DNA from: Rhizobium sp. WSM4643
GTDB lineage: Bacteria; Pseudomonadota; Alphaproteobacteria; Rhizobiales; Rhizobiaceae
NCBI RefSeq assembly: GCF_025152745.1
Contig: NZ_CP104040.1
Span: forward strand, 310,001-374,000
Direction of reading: 5' to 3'
DNA: 64,000 nucleotides
Within the stretch, counting starts at the first letter, position 1. Each line of letters starts with the position of its first letter. Both the position numbers and the translations under genes were made by a program. Shown here in pieces: positions 33,560 through 41,821 of this stretch. A model generated the notes under the pieces. It was not told the DNA's origin and searched no databases. It saw only the letters and a program-made list of their open reading frames with translations.

Positions 33560-34066
33560 ATGGCAGAGCCAGACGTAAGCGCAGGTCAACCGAACAAGAA
33601 ATCCGGCTCGTTGATGACGATCATCGGCATCGCCGTCCTGACGCTCGTCGGCGCCGGCGGCGGCTGGGCGGTCGGCACGATCGTCGCACCCAACATCAAG
33701 GGTGCCAAGGAGGTCGAGCAGGCCAAGGGTGCCGAGGCCAAGAAGAAGGCCGAGGAAGGTCTGGCGCGGATCTCGACCGAGGCCAACAACGTCGTCCAAC
33801 TCGAACCGATCACCTCGAACCTCGCCTACCCCTCGGAAAACTGGGTCCGACTCGAAGTCGCGCTGCTGTTCAACGGGCCGCCGGATGTCAAGGTTTCAGA
33901 GGATATTCATCAGGATATCCTCGCCTATATCAGAACCGTTTCCCTTCAGCAGATCGAGGGGCCGCGCGGCTTTCAATATCTCAAGGATGACATACAGGAA
34001 CGTGTTGACCTTCGCTCGCAAGGGCGGGTATCGAAGGTCATGTTCAGGACATTTGTCATCGAATGA
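33560..34066 (+). CDS. fliL: Flagellar basal-body protein FliL
   Basis: A 168-residue single-span protein (membrane segment about 18-38) with a charged coiled linker and a periplasmic stomatin-like FliL domain (LEPITSNLAYPSENWVRLEV; SEDIHQDILAYIRTVSL). FliL surrounds the stator and stabilises torque generation. A second protein with similar layout lies at 58344. Overlaps fliP by four bases. Confidence 0.93.
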   Translation: MAEPDVSAGQPNKKSGSLMTIIGIAVLTLVGAGGGWAVGTIVAPNIKGAKEVEQAKGAEAKKKAEEGLARISTEANNVVQLEPITSNLAYPSENWVRLEVALLFNGPPDVKVSEDIHQDILAYIRTVSLQQIEGPRGFQYLKDDIQERVDLRSQGRVSKVMFRTFVIE

Positions 34067-34797
34067 TTCGTCTCATAGTTTTCCTTGCCATGATGGCGGT
34101 ACCGGAACTGGCGGTGGCACAGCAGCTGCCGACTGACTTGTTGAACGTCCCGGTCGATGGCTCCGTCGCCGCCTGGATCATCCGCACATTCGGCCTGCTG
34201 ACCATTCTTTCGGTCGCGCCGGGCATCCTGATCATGGTGACGAGCTTCCCGCGCTTCGTCATCGCCTTCTCGATCCTGCGCTCAGGGATGGGCCTCTCTT
34301 CGACGCCTTCCAACATGATCCTTTTGTCGCTGTCGCTGTTCATGACCTTCTACGTCATGTCGCCGACCTTCGATCAGGCCTGGCAGAACGGCGTGCAGCC
34401 GCTGCTTGCCAATCAGATCAATGAGACCGAGGCGGTCCAGCGTATCGCCGAACCCTTCCGCACCTTCATGGCGGCCAATACCCGCGACAAGGATCTGGCG
34501 CTCTTCGTCGATCTGGCGCGCGAACGCGGACAGAATATCCAGACGACCAATCCGATCGACTATCGGGTGCTGATCCCGGCCTTCATGATTTCCGAAATTC
34601 GCCGCGGCTTCGAGATCGGCTTCCTCGTCGTGCTGCCGTTCCTCGTCATCGACCTGATCGTCGCGACCATCACCATGGCGATGGGCATGATGATGCTGCC
34701 GCCGACCTCAATCTCGTTGCCTTTCAAGATTCTCTTCTTCGTGCTGATCGACGGCTGGAACCTGCTGGTCGGCAGCCTGGTGCGTTCGTTCAACTGA
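34063..34797 (+). CDS. fliP: Flagellar export gate protein FliP
   Basis: A 244-residue export-gate subunit with a signal peptide and four spans; signatures are SFPRFVIAFSILRSGMGL and VLIPAFMISEIRRGFEIGFL, and MAMGMMMLPPTSISLPFKIL near the end. FliP forms the central pore with FliQ and FliR, encoded about 19-22 kb to the right. No fliO is recognised nearby. Confidence 0.97.
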   Translation: MIRLIVFLAMMAVPELAVAQQLPTDLLNVPVDGSVAAWIIRTFGLLTILSVAPGILIMVTSFPRFVIAFSILRSGMGLSSTPSNMILLSLSLFMTFYVMSPTFDQAWQNGVQPLLANQINETEAVQRIAEPFRTFMAANTRDKDLALFVDLARERGQNIQTTNPIDYRVLIPAFMISEIRRGFEIGFLVVLPFLVIDLIVATITMAMGMMMLPPTSISLPFKILFFVLIDGWNLLVGSLVRSFN

Positions 34798-34830
34798 CCG
34801 GCTGCCGCCGGTTGATATTCGCCAATGAGA

Positions 34831-34863
34831 AACCCGCCGGATCGCTCCGGCGGGTTCTTTAAT
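34831..34863 (+). terminator. Intrinsic terminator after fliP
   Basis: AACCCGCCGG (34831-34840) pairs with CCGGCGGGTT (34847-34856) around a 6-nt loop, followed by CTTTAATT. It ends the flgF-fliP gene run; the next gene is on the other strand and also ends nearby. Confidence 0.88.
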
Positions 34864-34941
34864 TATGCCGCAATTCGAGATGTTAAAACGTCCTTTGAGC
34901 GTCCGAAGGATGCGCGGCGCTGTGTAGTGGTCGAAAAGCCC

Positions 34942-36858
34942 TCACTCGGCCGCGAACGGCGCCGTGCGCGGCGGCAGCGCCGGAATGTCCATGTGCTCGG
35001 GTGCAAGACCCTGCTTGGCACGGTCGGCCATGACTTCATAGGCCTGCTCCAGATGGTCGCAGAACCGTTCGGCATCGAAGAGCGGCGCGATATAGCGCTT
35101 CTCCTTGAGATGCGCCTTGTATTGCGCGATCCGCGCGGGGTTCTGCGCCAGTTCGACGGCAAGATCCTCATAGGCCTGCAGGTCGGCTGCAACGAGTTCG
35201 GGCAGGTCGATGGCCCTGAGCAGGCTCTCGCTGACGCGTGAGGCGAAGTTGGTGCCCTTGACGGTCAGGACCGGCAGGCCGCCCCAGAGTTGCTCCGAGG
35301 TGGTCGTGTGGCCGTTGACGGGGAAGGTGTCGATGCCGATGTCGGCCGCCTGCTGACGGTCGATGTGCTCTTCATAGGGCGCGCGCGGGCAGAAGATGAT
35401 CCGCTTGGCGGAGATCCCTGCCGCCTGGAATTGCTTCAGGAGGTTCGCCTGGTTGCGCGGCGTGTTCGCCATCAGCCAGAGCACGCTGTTCGGCGCGCGC
35501 TTGAGAATGCGGCACCAGCTGTCGATCGTCTCCGGCGTGATTTTGCGGTTGCCGTTGAAGGACGCGAAGATGAAGGCGTCTTCCGGCAGGCCGAGCTGCT
35601 CGCGGGTGACAGGGCGCGGCTTCGGGCGATGCATCGGGTCGTTCGGCTGGTAGCTCTCCGGCAGCCGGCAGAATTTCTCATGGTAGAAGGGCTTGGCCAC
35701 CTCGGGCAATACCGAATGGTCGCCGATGACGTAGTCGAGATCGATATTGACCGTGCTGCCGGGGAAACCGAGCCAGCCGACATGCACCGGCGCGAGCGGC
35801 AAATTGAAGGCCGACGCGCGGCTGCCCGAAGTATGACCCTTCAGGTCGACCATGATGTCGATATTATGCTCGCGTACCGCTGCGAGCATCCCCTGGTCGG
35901 AGAAGCCGTGAACGGTGACGACCCGGCCCCAGCGGCTGCGGTCGGTATTGTTATGCTTGAGGTACTCAGGGCCTGTATGGCAGAAGAGCGTCACCTCGAA
36001 CCGGTCCTTGTCGTGCAGTTCGAGGATGCGCTGCAAGAGCTTCATCGTCGCGTGGCGGTCCCAGAAGTCAGATGACATGTAGCCGATCCGGATCTTGTCC
36101 GACCAGCTGTGCGGCTGGTTGCGGCGGAAGGCCACCCGTTCCGGGTTGAGGGGAGTGGTGCCGATCGTCGCATATCGATTGAAATCCTCGTTGCCGCACC
36201 AGTGCAGATGATAGAACGGGTTATCCTTGCGCAGGATCTCGACATCGCCCTTTGCGAGTGAGGCATCGATCACTGCCTGGTGTTTGCTTGCCTCTTCGAA
36301 CTCATTGAATTCGCGAGCGAAAACCAGATGCAGGAAGCGGAATGCGAGATTGCCTGGAAACCGCTTGAAGAGGTTGCGCGACAGGCTCTGGTTGGTTGCG
36401 TCGTTCAGATCATCGCTCAGAAGCAGGGCTGCCAGGCGCATATGATCGGGATTGGCACTCTGCGACAGCACCGTCTTGAACGGGCGGATGATATCGCGCT
36501 GCTGCCGCTTCAGATAGATCGCGGTGATGATGAAGGCGAGTTCCGGGTCTTCCTGCGCCTTGCTAAGGTTTCGCATGGCGATCAGCAGAGCATCGTCCTC
36601 GCTGCCGGTCTCGTAGTGCAGCTTGGCCGCCTGCTTCTGGTATTCGTAGGAATTCGGTCCTTCACAGCTGCCGGCCAGGCCATAGGCTTTCGCGGCATCG
36701 GCCTTGAAACCGAGCTGCACGAGGTTCTTGGCCAGCAACGCATAGGTCTTGGCGTCCTGCTGAATATCCATCAGCTGATTGAGCGTCGCCAAGGACTGTG
36801 TGTAGCGGCCCATCTGGTAATCCTTGGATGCCGCAGAGAACGAAACTTTGCTGTTCAA
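34942..36858 (-). CDS. TPR/GT41 glycosyltransferase, candidate flagellin O-glycosyltransferase
   Basis: A 638-residue protein with TPR-like helical repeats over about 1-220 (QMGRYTQSLATLNQLMDIQ; NLVQLGFKADAAKAYGLAG) and a SPINDLY/OGT-type GT41 catalytic region. Its signatures are IGYMSSDFWDRHATMKLL (~255), APVHVGWLGFPGSTVNIDLD (~356), FNGNRKITPETIDSWCRIL (~436) and FPVNGHTTTSEQLWGGLPVL (~513). The frame is open 82 codons further upstream, but I place the start at TTG 36858 because GGAG lies 7 bases before it. It is divergent from four flagellin genes. FlmG of Caulobacter has this architecture and modifies flagellins; that role here is inferred. Confidence 0.82.
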   Translation of the reverse strand: MNSKVSFSAASKDYQMGRYTQSLATLNQLMDIQQDAKTYALLAKNLVQLGFKADAAKAYGLAGSCEGPNSYEYQKQAAKLHYETGSEDDALLIAMRNLSKAQEDPELAFIITAIYLKRQQRDIIRPFKTVLSQSANPDHMRLAALLLSDDLNDATNQSLSRNLFKRFPGNLAFRFLHLVFAREFNEFEEASKHQAVIDASLAKGDVEILRKDNPFYHLHWCGNEDFNRYATIGTTPLNPERVAFRRNQPHSWSDKIRIGYMSSDFWDRHATMKLLQRILELHDKDRFEVTLFCHTGPEYLKHNNTDRSRWGRVVTVHGFSDQGMLAAVREHNIDIMVDLKGHTSGSRASAFNLPLAPVHVGWLGFPGSTVNIDLDYVIGDHSVLPEVAKPFYHEKFCRLPESYQPNDPMHRPKPRPVTREQLGLPEDAFIFASFNGNRKITPETIDSWCRILKRAPNSVLWLMANTPRNQANLLKQFQAAGISAKRIIFCPRAPYEEHIDRQQAADIGIDTFPVNGHTTTSEQLWGGLPVLTVKGTNFASRVSESLLRAIDLPELVAADLQAYEDLAVELAQNPARIAQYKAHLKEKRYIAPLFDAERFCDHLEQAYEVMADRAKQGLAPEHMDIPALPPRTAPFAAE

Positions 36859-37302
36859 AACCCAACTCCGTGAAGGAAATGTTCTGGCGTCGACCGCCGA
36901 GGCACGGACAGGCCGTCCGCCGCAAAACGGGGCGGTTCGGTCCGATGGTGCTATCCCGGCGCCTGCCACATTGGCATTCGAAGCTTGCTTGAAACCGGTG
37001 CGCTTAATGAGCCTCTGTTTTTGCGGGAAAATGCCGACTTTGCCTAGGGAAAGCGCTTGGTTTTCAAGAAAAATAGGATGCCAAGGAATATATTCAGCAA
37101 GCATTAACTATGCCCGCGAGGAGCCGGTCTGGGCCCTGTATTTTTAAGGAGTTGGCAAGCATTGGCTGCGAGATTGCCCTGGACATGACGGGTTTGGGCC
37201 AAACAAAAAAGGCGCCGAGTAGCATGAAGCTGGTCCGTCATCGCCGGTACTATAGTCCGGTATGTCCTCCTTTTTGTATCTAGTTTTCCAGGGGACAGAC
37301 TT
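36859..37302. promoter_or_regulatory. Divergent region between the GT41 gene and flaA
   Basis: A 444-bp gap with no convincing gene, although the frame of the GT41 gene stays open into it to 37104. It contains the flaA leader from GCATGA at 37222, with CCGG (37244-37247) and CCGG (37257-37260) forming a short hairpin before ATGTCC and a pyrimidine run. GGGGA serves as ribosome binding site. The leader resembles those of flaB and flaC. No CtrA-type box was found here. Confidence 0.6.
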
Positions 37303-38208
37303 ATGACAAGCATTAACACGAATACTTCCGCGATGGCCGCTCTCCAGACGCTGCGTAGCGTCAACCAGGGCCTCAACCAGACGCAGAACCACGTTTCGTC
37401 CGGCTATCGCGTTGAAAAGGCTTCCGACAACGCCGCTTACTGGTCGATCGCAACGACCATGCGTTCTGACAACAAGGCTCTCTCGGCTGTTTCCGACGCT
37501 CTCGGCGTAGGCGCTGCCAAGGTTGATACCGCTTACACCGCCATGGACAGCGCCATCGACGTCGTCGGCGACATCAAGGCCAAGCTGGTTGCCGCCACTG
37601 AAAACGGCGTCGACAAGGCCAAGGTGCAGGAAGAAATCGGCCAGCTGCAGCAGCAGCTCCTGAGCATCTCTCAGTCGGCTTCCTTCAACGGCGAAAACTG
37701 GGTTGCCGGCGCTAGCGGCACCAAGAGCGTCGTCTCCTCGTTCGTCCGCGACGGCTCCAACGCCGTTTCGATCAAGACGACCGACTACGTTCTCAACAGC
37801 GGCTCCGCGGGCAACGTTCTGTTCGGCATGAGCGGCGGCGCGGTCGAAACCTCCACGGGTATCCTCGGTACTTCGAATGGTGCGACCGGTTCTGTCTACG
37901 CAATGGACATCACCAACTTCACCTCAGGCCAGATCGCGTCGGCTCTGACCAACGTTGAATCGGCTCTGAAGGCCATGACCAGCGCCGGCGCTGCTCTCGG
38001 TTCGCTCTCCAGCCGCATCGACGCCCAGGACAACTTCGTGTCCGCTCTCAGCGACTCGATCGACTCCGGTGTCGGCCGTCTCGTTGATGCCAACATGGAA
38101 GAAGAGTCCTCCAAGCTCAGCGCCCTGCAGACCCAGCAGCAGCTGGCGATCCAGTCGCTGTCGATCGCGAACTCTTCTTCGCAGAACATCCTGTCGCTCT
38201 TCCGTTAA
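37303..38208 (+). CDS. flaA: Flagellin FlaA
   Basis: A 301-residue flagellin with conserved N-terminal (SSGYRVEKASDNAAYWSIAT) and C-terminal (QLAIQSLSIANSSSQNILSL) coiled-coil D0/D1 regions and a short variable middle (about 135-210) rich in Ser/Thr, so D2/D3 domains are nearly absent as in other rhizobia. First of the three similar tandem flagellins; FlaA is the principal filament subunit in relatives. Long blocks are nearly identical at DNA level to flaB, suggesting gene conversion. Confidence 0.96.
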   Translation: MTSINTNTSAMAALQTLRSVNQGLNQTQNHVSSGYRVEKASDNAAYWSIATTMRSDNKALSAVSDALGVGAAKVDTAYTAMDSAIDVVGDIKAKLVAATENGVDKAKVQEEIGQLQQQLLSISQSASFNGENWVAGASGTKSVVSSFVRDGSNAVSIKTTDYVLNSGSAGNVLFGMSGGAVETSTGILGTSNGATGSVYAMDITNFTSGQIASALTNVESALKAMTSAGAALGSLSSRIDAQDNFVSALSDSIDSGVGRLVDANMEEESSKLSALQTQQQLAIQSLSIANSSSQNILSLFR

Positions 38209-38490: not shown

Positions 38491-39399
38491 ATGACGAGCA
38501 TCAACACCAATAACGCTGCAATGGCAGCCCTCCAGACTCTTCGTGGCATCAACCAGGGTCTCCAGGAAACCCAGGCCCACGTTTCGTCCGGCTATCGCGT
38601 CGGCAAGGCTTCCGACAACGCTGCTTACTGGTCGATCGCAACGACCATGCGTTCTGATAACAAGGCTCTCTCGGCTGTTTCCGACGCTCTCGGCCTCGGC
38701 GCTGCAAAGGTCGACACCGCTTATTCCGCCATGGACAGCGCCATCGACGTCGTCGGCGACATCAAGGCCAAGCTGGTTGCCGCCACTGAAAACGGCGTCG
38801 ACAAGGCCAAGGTCCAGGAAGAAATCAGCCAGCTGCAGCAGCAGCTCCTGAGCGTCGCTCAGTCGGCTTCCTTCTCCGGTGAAAACTGGGTTGCTGGCGC
38901 TGACGGCACCAAGAACGTCGTCTCCTCGTTCGTCCGCGACGGCTCCAACGCCGTTTCGGTCGTGATGACCGACTATATTCTCGACGACAGCTCCACGGGC
39001 AACGTTCTGTTCGGCATGAGCAACGGCTCGGTCGAAACCTCCACGGGTATCCTCGGTACTTCGAATGGTGCGACCGGTTCTGTCTATGCAATGGACATCA
39101 CCAACTTCACCCTCGGCCAGATCCAGTCGGCTCTGACCAACGTTGAATCGGCTCTGAAGGCCATGACCAGCGCCGGCGCTCAGCTCGGCTCGATCTCCAA
39201 GCGCATCGAACTGCAGGAAAACTTCGTATCCGCTCTCAGCGACTCGATCGACTCCGGTGTCGGCCGTCTCGTCGATGCCAACATGGAAGAAGAGTCCTCC
39301 AAGCTCAGCGCCCTGCAGACCCAGCAGCAGCTGGCGGTCCAGTCGCTGTCGATCGCGAACTCCTCTTCGCAGACCATCCTCACGCTGTTCCGCGGCTAA
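38491..39399 (+). CDS. flaB: Flagellin FlaB
   Basis: A 302-residue flagellin closely similar to FlaA throughout, differing mainly in the variable middle (VVMTDYILDDSSTGNVLFG) and in KRIELQENF replacing SRIDAQDNF. A minor filament subunit by analogy with relatives. It has its own promoter region and terminators, so the flagellin genes are likely transcribed separately. Confidence 0.96.
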   Translation: MTSINTNNAAMAALQTLRGINQGLQETQAHVSSGYRVGKASDNAAYWSIATTMRSDNKALSAVSDALGLGAAKVDTAYSAMDSAIDVVGDIKAKLVAATENGVDKAKVQEEISQLQQQLLSVAQSASFSGENWVAGADGTKNVVSSFVRDGSNAVSVVMTDYILDDSSTGNVLFGMSNGSVETSTGILGTSNGATGSVYAMDITNFTLGQIQSALTNVESALKAMTSAGAQLGSISKRIELQENFVSALSDSIDSGVGRLVDANMEEESSKLSALQTQQQLAVQSLSIANSSSQTILTLFRG

Positions 39400-39646: not shown

Positions 39647-40558
39647 ATGACCAGCATTTTGACGAACGTCGCGGCGATGGCCGCTCTTCAGACACTCCGC
39701 GGCATCAACGACAGCCTTGAGACGACGCAGAACCACGTATCGTCGGGTTACCGCGTCGAAAAGGCCGCCGATAACGCCGCCTATTGGTCGATCGCAACGA
39801 CCATGCGTTCGGACAACAAGGCACTATCCGCCGTTTCCGACGCTCTCGGCCTCGGCGCCGCCAAGGTCGACACCGCTTACTCTGCCATGGACAGCGCCAT
39901 CGACATCATCAGCGAAATCAAGGCGAAGATCGTTGCCGCGACCGAAAAGGGCGTCGACAAGACCAAGATTCAGGAAGAAATCAGCCAGCTGCAGCAGCAG
40001 CTCCTGAGCATCGCGCAATCGGCTTCCTTCTCCGGTGAAAATTGGGTTGCCGGCGCTGACGGCACCAAGAGCGTCGTTTCCACCTTCGTGCGCGATGGCA
40101 ACGGCAATGTCTCGGTCAAGACAACGGACTACATTCTCAACTCGGGCTCCGCAGGCAACGTCCTCTTCGGCATGACCACGACTGGCACGATCGAGACGAG
40201 CTCCGGCATTCTCGGCACATCATCCGGTACAATCGGCTCGATCTACTCGATGGATATCAGCACGTTCGGCTCACCTGAGATCGCCATGGCCCTGACCTCG
40301 ATCGAGGCCGGCCTCGAAGCGATGACCAAGGCTGCGTCGCAGCTCGGCTCGATTTCCACTCGCATCGAGCTGCAGGAAAACTTCGTCGGCGCGCTCAGCG
40401 ACTCGATCGACTCGGGCGTCGGCCGCCTCGTCGATGCCGACATGGAAGAGGAATCGAGCAAGCTGACGGCGCTGCAAACGCAGCAGCAGCTGGCCATCCA
40501 GTCACTGTCGATCGCCAACTCCAGCGCTCAGAACATCCTCACGCTGTTCCGCAGCTAA
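39647..40558 (+). CDS. flaC: Flagellin FlaC
   Basis: A 303-residue flagellin of the same layout as FlaA and FlaB but with many synonymous differences from them, so it has escaped recent gene conversion. Conserved ends (SSGYRVEKAADNAAYWSIAT; QLAIQSLSIANSSAQNILTL) frame a Ser/Thr/Gly-rich middle. Naming by order; in relatives the third gene is variously called flaC or flaD. Confidence 0.94.
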   Translation: MTSILTNVAAMAALQTLRGINDSLETTQNHVSSGYRVEKAADNAAYWSIATTMRSDNKALSAVSDALGLGAAKVDTAYSAMDSAIDIISEIKAKIVAATEKGVDKTKIQEEISQLQQQLLSIAQSASFSGENWVAGADGTKSVVSTFVRDGNGNVSVKTTDYILNSGSAGNVLFGMTTTGTIETSSGILGTSSGTIGSIYSMDISTFGSPEIAMALTSIEAGLEAMTKAASQLGSISTRIELQENFVGALSDSIDSGVGRLVDADMEEESSKLTALQTQQQLAIQSLSIANSSAQNILTLFRS

Positions 40559-40748: not shown

Positions 40749-40858
40749 TTGATTTGCTTTTGCGACACGCCGGTAGAAACTCTGCCGGAGGCATGACGCC
40801 ACTTCAGTCGCCGCCGGCAATCCGGCCTGCCCTATCACCCCGATTCCGAGACCTGTCG

Positions 40859-41821
40859 ATGACCGTTAAGATTACCAGCGCGGCCGCGGTGAATGCGCTT
40901 GCGGTGCTGCGCAGCATCAACAAAGAAGCCAACCAGACCCAACAGCAGGTGTCCTCGGGGTATCGTATCGAGACGGCCGCCGACGATGCGTCCTACTGGT
41001 CGGTCGCGACCGTCATGCGCTCGGACAGCACCAATCTCGGAACGATCGGAGATGCGCTCGGTCTCGGCGCTGCCAAGGTGGATGCCACCTACACGGCGAT
41101 GAACTCGGCGATCGATCTCATAGGCGACATTCGCGCCAAGTTGGTTTCGGCAAGAGAGCCGGGCGCCGACAAGGACAAGATCAACGCCGAGATCGGCGAG
41201 TACAAGGAACAGCTGCAGACGGTCGTTGAATCGACGTCGTTTGCGGGTGAAAACTGGCTGTTGAACGGCGATACCGCCGCGCCGCCGAACTGGCAGGTCA
41301 TCTCTGGTTTCGTGCGCGCTCCGACCGGCGAATATCAGGCCCAGACCATCGATTTCCCATCCTCGCAGACCATTCTCGTCGATAAGAACAATGCGAGCGG
41401 CGGCCTGCTGACCAAGCCGGTCGATGCCAACGCCATCAATAACAGCGGCACGACGTCGCGGAACTACTATTTGCTGAACGCCAATTCCACCACGCCGGCT
41501 ATCGGTACGGAAATTGCGATTGGCAAGAGCACGACCGATGCGCAACTTACCGACATGCTTGACGTCACCGACTCGCTGCTCTCCTCGCTGACGACGACGG
41601 CCGCGTCCATCGGCGTGATGAAGACCCGCATCGACGATCAGATCGACTATACCGCCGATCTGTCCGATTCGATCGACAAGAGCGTCGGTGCGCTCGTCGA
41701 TACCGACATGGACGAGGCTTCGATCCGGCAGAAGGCGATCGAAACCCAGAAGCAGATGGCCGTCGAAGCGATCTCGATCCTCAACACCGCCGCCAGCAAG
41801 GTCCTGATCCTGCTGGAGTAG
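40859..41821 (+). CDS. Divergent fourth flagellin
   Basis: A 320-residue flagellin clearly related to FlaA-C at both ends (SSGYRIETAADDASYWSVAT; KSVGALVDTDMDEASIRQKA) but with a different, longer middle (about 140-225, including NNSGTTSRNYYLLNANSTTP) and C-terminal sequence ending KVLILLE. The start is ATG 40859; the longer open frame from 40754 lacks a ribosome binding site. It may be a minor or hook-proximal filament subunit. In S. meliloti there are also four flagellins. Confidence 0.9.
   Translation: MTVKITSAAAVNALAVLRSINKEANQTQQQVSSGYRIETAADDASYWSVATVMRSDSTNLGTIGDALGLGAAKVDATYTAMNSAIDLIGDIRAKLVSAREPGADKDKINAEIGEYKEQLQTVVESTSFAGENWLLNGDTAAPPNWQVISGFVRAPTGEYQAQTIDFPSSQTILVDKNNASGGLLTKPVDANAINNSGTTSRNYYLLNANSTTPAIGTEIAIGKSTTDAQLTDMLDVTDSLLSSLTTTAASIGVMKTRIDDQIDYTADLSDSIDKSVGALVDTDMDEASIRQKAIETQKQMAVEAISILNTAASKVLILLE

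Follow-up and report, generated by a model that had tools for sequence, protein, structure and literature searches.

Two described kinds of flagellin-modifying enzyme bear comparison with the gene considered here. FlmG of Caulobacter crescentus modified flagellin, in the tests reported, only if pseudaminic acid was being produced (PMC7591256), while for the GT41 enzymes in the flagellin glycosylation islands of enterobacteria the authors predicted addition of GlcNAc derivatives (PMC4875605), so that a flagellin GT41 free of nonulosonates has a precedent as a prediction. In SPINDLY (SPY), an O-fucosyltransferase, Tyr744 clashes with GlcNAc according to its authors (PMC9715652). Among rhizobia, flagellins of R. 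leguminosarum 3841 and VF39SM were Pro-Q-positive, which was presented as possible glycosylation on the basis of gel staining and of slower migration or mass shift (PMC2936354); the available part of that report names no enzyme. A first-pass annotation of the present DNA took flagellin glycosylation as reported in R. leguminosarum; what is published is this staining, put forward as a possibility. No description of the rhizobial GT41 gene considered here was found in the available text of the literature matches listed.

Results

The window, which is the whole stretch of 64,000 nucleotides analysed from Rhizobium sp. WSM4643 (NZ_CP104040.1, positions 310,001 to 374,000), contains the features listed in Table 1. 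As annotated in the first pass, the GT41 gene is read away from flaA, with flaB, flaC and flaD beyond, and its product joins a TPR-like half to a complete OGT/SPINDLY-type GT41 catalytic region, a description on which profile match, predicted model and fold search agree. The score of PF13844 (GT41) on the 638-aa protein was 247.8 bits against a curated cut-off of 25, and the N-terminal half gave a profile match to designed TPR proteins, with Pfam TPR matches staying below cut-off. The predicted model has a TPR-type N-terminal half and a GT-B C-terminal half, the build of FlmG, and its fold supports an OGT type; the catalytic Lys and His, whose loss had been named beforehand as evidence against the assignment, were retained in the alignment. 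All 50 Foldseek rows among the matches listed were OGT or SPINDLY and the 50 matches listed by VIA were GT41 or other GT-B enzymes; therefore the choice of donor is not decided by fold. The gene is under purifying selection, and its product is likely a soluble cytoplasmic O-glycosyltransferase, for which flagellin would be the substrate.

Table 1. Features of the flagellin-linked GT41 locus, by position in the window.
Feature	Position	Strand	Remark
fliP	34063..34797	+	PF00813; convergent with GT41 gene
Terminator-like hairpin	34831..34856	+	Between fliP and end of GT41 gene
GT41 gene	34942..36858	-	TTG start; 638 aa; intact; lengths of relatives considered
GT-B/GT41 catalytic domain	34984..36096	-	Residues 254-624 of predicted model
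Glu at hOGT D925 position	35293..35295	-	Glu in each of the 64 flagellin-side proteins checked
Lys equivalent to hOGT K842	35542..35544	-	By alignment
TPR-like helical half	36118..36840	-	Residues 6-246 of predicted model
GGAG, ribosome-binding-site-like	36866..36869	-	7 nt before TTG 36858; read directly
flaA	37303..38208	+	Divergent from GT41 gene; probable acceptor
flaB	38491..39399	+	Probable acceptor
flaC	39647..40558	+	Probable acceptor
flaD	40862..41821	+	Possible acceptor; start inferred from 319-aa relatives

Upstream of the TTG start, the GT41 reading frame stays open as far as an ATG at 37104, and the listed ORF of flaD begins at 40754, upstream of the start given in Table 1. Terminator-like hairpins numbered three in the region as against 2.4 expected by chance, and a scan of 34700-37400 for promoters of the sigma-70 type found nothing.

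Two donor-contact positions of the protein are altered relative to human OGT (hOGT), K898 being replaced by Tyr and D925 by Glu. The latter residue ends the motif NGHTTTSE, which is shared by the 64 flagellin-side proteins checked and by that of L101, a relocated gene described below; among 13 other Rhizobiaceae GT41s with an NGHTTTS-type motif the last place was Asp in 12 and Glu in one (L070). The position equivalent to hOGT C917 and SPY Tyr744 directly precedes the motif and, in place of the Tyr of the fucose-sized SPINDLY pocket, holds Val in the window's protein. A clade-wide donor signature at this residue was considered and rejected, since it is Val in 57 and Tyr in seven of the 64 flagellin-side proteins; Tyr was also found in L101. 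Val at this position would fit UDP-GlcNAc in the window's protein, yet the residue varies within the clade.

The association of the gene with flagellin genes was evident from its distribution. Whole-genome search of 148 Rhizobium genomes found an ortholog (at least 54% identity) in 146; the remaining two (G284 and G287) gave distant GT41 matches only. A search with the protein yielded 61 named loci, 53 of flagellar type and eight (L065-L072) in which no flagellar genes were detected around the GT41. As with FlmG, the gene is tied to flagellin: a flagellin gene adjoined it in 48 of the 53 flagellar-type loci, and in the other five (L037, L038, L048, L053 and L058) the contig edge comes before any flagellin. 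On the other side, fliP flanked the gene in 51 of the 53 loci, in six of them beyond an insert of about 1.1 kb, and by reading, other flagellar genes flanked it in the two loci that had no fliP (L060 and L063). The insert (around 11000-12150 in L021, L022, L027, L028, L033 and L035) was considered as a glycan helper and rejected; by reading, it encodes a regulator of the Lrp type and a small protein resembling alpha/beta-hydrolases. In a family-wide GT41 search, from which 37 loci were read out of a larger number of matches (L084, L089, L090 and L097 repeat genomes of the 61-locus set), 13 loci lay in a flagellar cluster (12 with flagellin seen, while L085 meets a contig end), 22, including L101, lay elsewhere, and in two (L081 and L086) the GT41 was a different one, set within a flagellin array. 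The GT41 gene of one genome (G011) sits apart from the flagellins, which counts against flagellin as substrate.

In the two Rhizobium genomes without an ortholog, fliP runs directly into the flagellin genes, and five of their seven flagellins are 397-410 aa long (in G287, three measure 398-410 aa and the fourth 314 aa; in G284, two measure 397-398 aa and the third 320 aa), whereas all 176 flagellins measured from 45 gene-bearing Rhizobium loci were 295-320 aa. As a family-wide marker, flagellin length was rejected: it holds within Rhizobium but not outside, where four of 13 gene-bearing genomes carried flagellins at least 391 aa long and the median flagellin was 313-327 aa in 28 of 38 loci without the gene. 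The Ser/Thr-rich middles of the flagellins, which the first-pass annotation had offered as an argument for acceptor sites, did not discriminate, since Ser plus Thr made up 27.5% of the middles with the enzyme (230 flagellins) and 28.6% without it (128 flagellins), in a count from which L143, L145, L163 and L004 were left out beforehand, in which duplicate genomes were kept (L061 and L084, L057 and L089, L025 and L090) and in which L081, L086 and L167, having another GT41 in the array, were scored as without the enzyme. Outside Rhizobium, the corresponding values were 24.7% with the gene (14 loci) and 28.2% without it (38 loci; p=0.04). Composition is thus uninformative and length fails outside Rhizobium, so that the case for flagellin as substrate consists of linkage and joint exchange.

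In a tree of the catalytic halves of GT41 proteins (95 rows), 21 flagellin-side rows from Rhizobiaceae and L101 formed one clade of 22 rows (support 100/99), L101 being a member relocated away from flagellins, and this clade nested among non-flagellar GT41s of Rhizobiaceae. Two flagellin-side GT41s fell outside it, namely L143, from another family, and L004/L167. The latter (L167:4977-6884, genome G001) lies within a four-flagellin array, belongs to another clade and is an independent pairing of flagellin and GT41; the former (L143:9348-13162) belongs to a further branch and has a 486-aa flagellin as its neighbour. Also outside the rhizobial clade were three NulO-linked flagellar GT41s of other Alphaproteobacteria (L145, L150 and L153), which stood in for Caulobacter FlmG in the tree; the exact placement of these three is unsure because of their long branches.

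A separate clade of Rhizobiaceae GT41s, 33-37% identical to the window's protein, adjoins very large Ser/Thr-rich proteins with ALSTxQIAALTT-like tandem repeats (L076, L079, L081, L082, L086, L091, L099, L100, L102, L104, L106, L108 and L111), in open frames that run from about 1,090 to 2,460 aa, with some truncated where the locus sequence ends or by N. Such a protein adjoined the GT41 in 13 of 15 loci of this clade as against none of 13 other GT41 loci checked, an arrangement that has the look of an enzyme with its substrate. The GT41 of this clade lies inside the flagellin array in L081 and L086.

Judged by one HMM per pathway, none of three specialized sugar pathways accompanied the gene throughout. 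Thus, among the 146 gene-bearing Rhizobium genomes, NeuB was absent in 98, CDP-glucose dehydratase in 86 and GDP-mannose dehydratase (gmd) in 41; NeuB and CDP-glucose dehydratase were both absent in 69, and gmd as well in 32. Genomes without NeuB included G228 (assembly 93% complete), with a GT41 that was, after rounding, 100% identical to the window's, and G233 (assembly 100% complete), with one 98% identical. At the level of the family, GT41 and NeuB were not associated (3 of 16 as against 39 of 183 genomes; Fisher p=1), 16 being a minimum because only part of the GT41 matches was read. The window's own genome has gmd, as do 106 of the 148 Rhizobium genomes with it included, and it has NeuB. 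The earlier observation that no nonulosonate pathway is seen in the window fits the part of it that was annotated and the genome search, the only NeuB found in the genome lying 88 kb past the window end together with LegB- and PseG-like genes (G000 C1:459000-467000, L073). The NeuB of this genome scored below the NCBIfam cut-offs for both NeuNAc synthase and pseudaminate synthase, an MptE-like ORF of its cluster was below the Pfam cut-off, and the cluster looks surface-polysaccharide-like because, by reading, an ABC-transporter-like ORF adjoins. PF20157 (Maf) was found in none of the 148 Rhizobium genomes, the control genomes being likewise silent. In two flagellar clusters, sugar genes were present: L088:1253-9269 carries glucose-1-phosphate cytidylyltransferase (RfbF), CDP-glucose dehydratase (RfbG), RfbH and an RmlC-like gene between fliP and the GT41 gene, and in L077:916-5945 fliL and fliP are separated by genes for CDP-glucose dehydratase and for a methyltransferase of CmcI type. 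These 6-deoxy-sugar genes may serve to elongate or modify a base sugar that the lineages have in common.

Discussion

A TPR-like half and a complete GT41 region, fixed beside flagellin genes, make a flagellin O-glycosyltransferase the best reading of this gene. In the mechanism that we consider fairly probable, a soluble TPR-GT41 enzyme glycosylates FlaA-D with a common nucleotide sugar before export. Thus, the TPR-like half, presumed to be the flagellin-binding part, would capture newly made FlaA-D, and the GT41 half would attach a single sugar to Ser or Thr in the exposed flagellin middle, drawing on a ubiquitous nucleotide sugar for which UDP-GlcNAc, or one close to it, is the likeliest choice; modification before export is suggested by analogy with FlmG, and both the linkage and the UDP-sugar donor are inferred. 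On sequence and co-occurrence, a ubiquitous NDP-sugar is the simplest and a probable donor, and UDP-GlcNAc may be the one used. A term search of an A. fabrum motility screen found no mention of a glycosyltransferase, which would count against this mechanism only if A. fabrum has the gene.

Three other explanations were weighed against this one. The precedent of FlmG, the NeuB of the window's genome and the occurrence in L145, L150 and L153 of a flagellar-locus GT41 with Maf (by Pfam) and NeuB- or Pse-like genes (by reading) would all agree with a true FlmG equivalent, supplied with a CMP-nonulosonate by the NeuB/LegB/PseG-like cluster at about 459-466 kb of C1. This explanation is nevertheless unlikely, as NeuB is missing from two-thirds of the gene-bearing genomes, G228 and G233 among them, no association appears at the family level, and the genome's own NeuB is below cut-offs and in a cluster of surface-polysaccharide-like appearance. 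That the donor or the glycan is made of 6-deoxy sugars derived from CDP-glucose or GDP-mannose, the GT41 placing either the first sugar or a subsequent one, is rather unlikely. The cassettes of L088 and L077, the frequency of gmd in Rhizobium and the SPY-like Tyr of seven flagellin-side proteins speak for it; against these stand the many gene-bearing genomes that lack CDP-glucose dehydratase or gmd and the Val of the window's protein. In certain lineages, such cassettes more probably add to a base sugar common to all.

That the enzyme acts on a target other than flagellin, or is mainly a regulator of flagellar genes, appears very unlikely. The flagellar O-GlcNAc transferase of Listeria also regulates, GT41s can have non-flagellar targets, and other GT41s of Rhizobiaceae adjoin Ser/Thr-rich repeat proteins. 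Within one clade, however, the linkage to flagellin is fixed, and the two Rhizobium genomes that lack the gene also have a changed flagellin set, both of which favor glycosylation of flagellin.

The GT41 gene is accordingly a near-universal candidate in Rhizobium for flagellin glycosylation, and flagellin glycans may bear on flagellotropic phages and on plant recognition, as the available parts of two reports suggest (PMC8310070, PMC8429497). If the donor is a housekeeping sugar, flagellin modification by a TPR-GT41 enzyme needs no nonulosonic acids, and the enzyme could find use in attaching plain O-linked sugars to proteins of choice. More broadly, we offer a tentative proposal, in which our confidence falls a little short of even: rhizobia may possess cytoplasmic flagellin O-glycosyltransferases of a second class, one independent of nonulosonates, which was recruited once from a radiation of Rhizobiaceae GT41s and adds a housekeeping UDP-sugar as base; on this base, lineage-specific cassettes beside the gene (such as CDP-dideoxyhexose genes) would build in some lineages, and other GT41s of the radiation would be paired with other Ser/Thr-rich neighbours.

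Like FlmG, as described in the available part of that report, the enzyme has a TPR-containing N-terminal half and a GT-B C-terminal half, is soluble and is tied to flagellin (PMC7591256); unlike FlmG, it persists in 98 Rhizobium genomes that lack NeuB. Of the three NulO-linked proxies used for FlmG, all outside the rhizobial clade, two are 25% identical to the window's protein and L145 gave no tblastn match. The likeness to FlmG drawn in the first-pass annotation applies to build and probable function but finds no support as to donor, given the NeuB counts; the enzyme probably works like FlmG and should not be filed as FlmG, since co-occurrence gives no sign of dependence on nonulosonates. With the enterobacterial island enzymes it shares a SPINDLY-domain GT41 in a flagellin locus, although those islands, as described, are variable and nearly all have methyltransferase domains (PMC4875605), whereas the rhizobial gene is a TPR-type fusion found almost throughout Rhizobium. 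It differs from XcOGT and human OGT at the positions of C917 (Val), K898 (Tyr) and D925 (Glu) and in its bacterial flagellar context, and from the O-fucosyltransferase SPINDLY in having Val at the position of Tyr744 and in being carried by 41 genomes from which gmd is missing.
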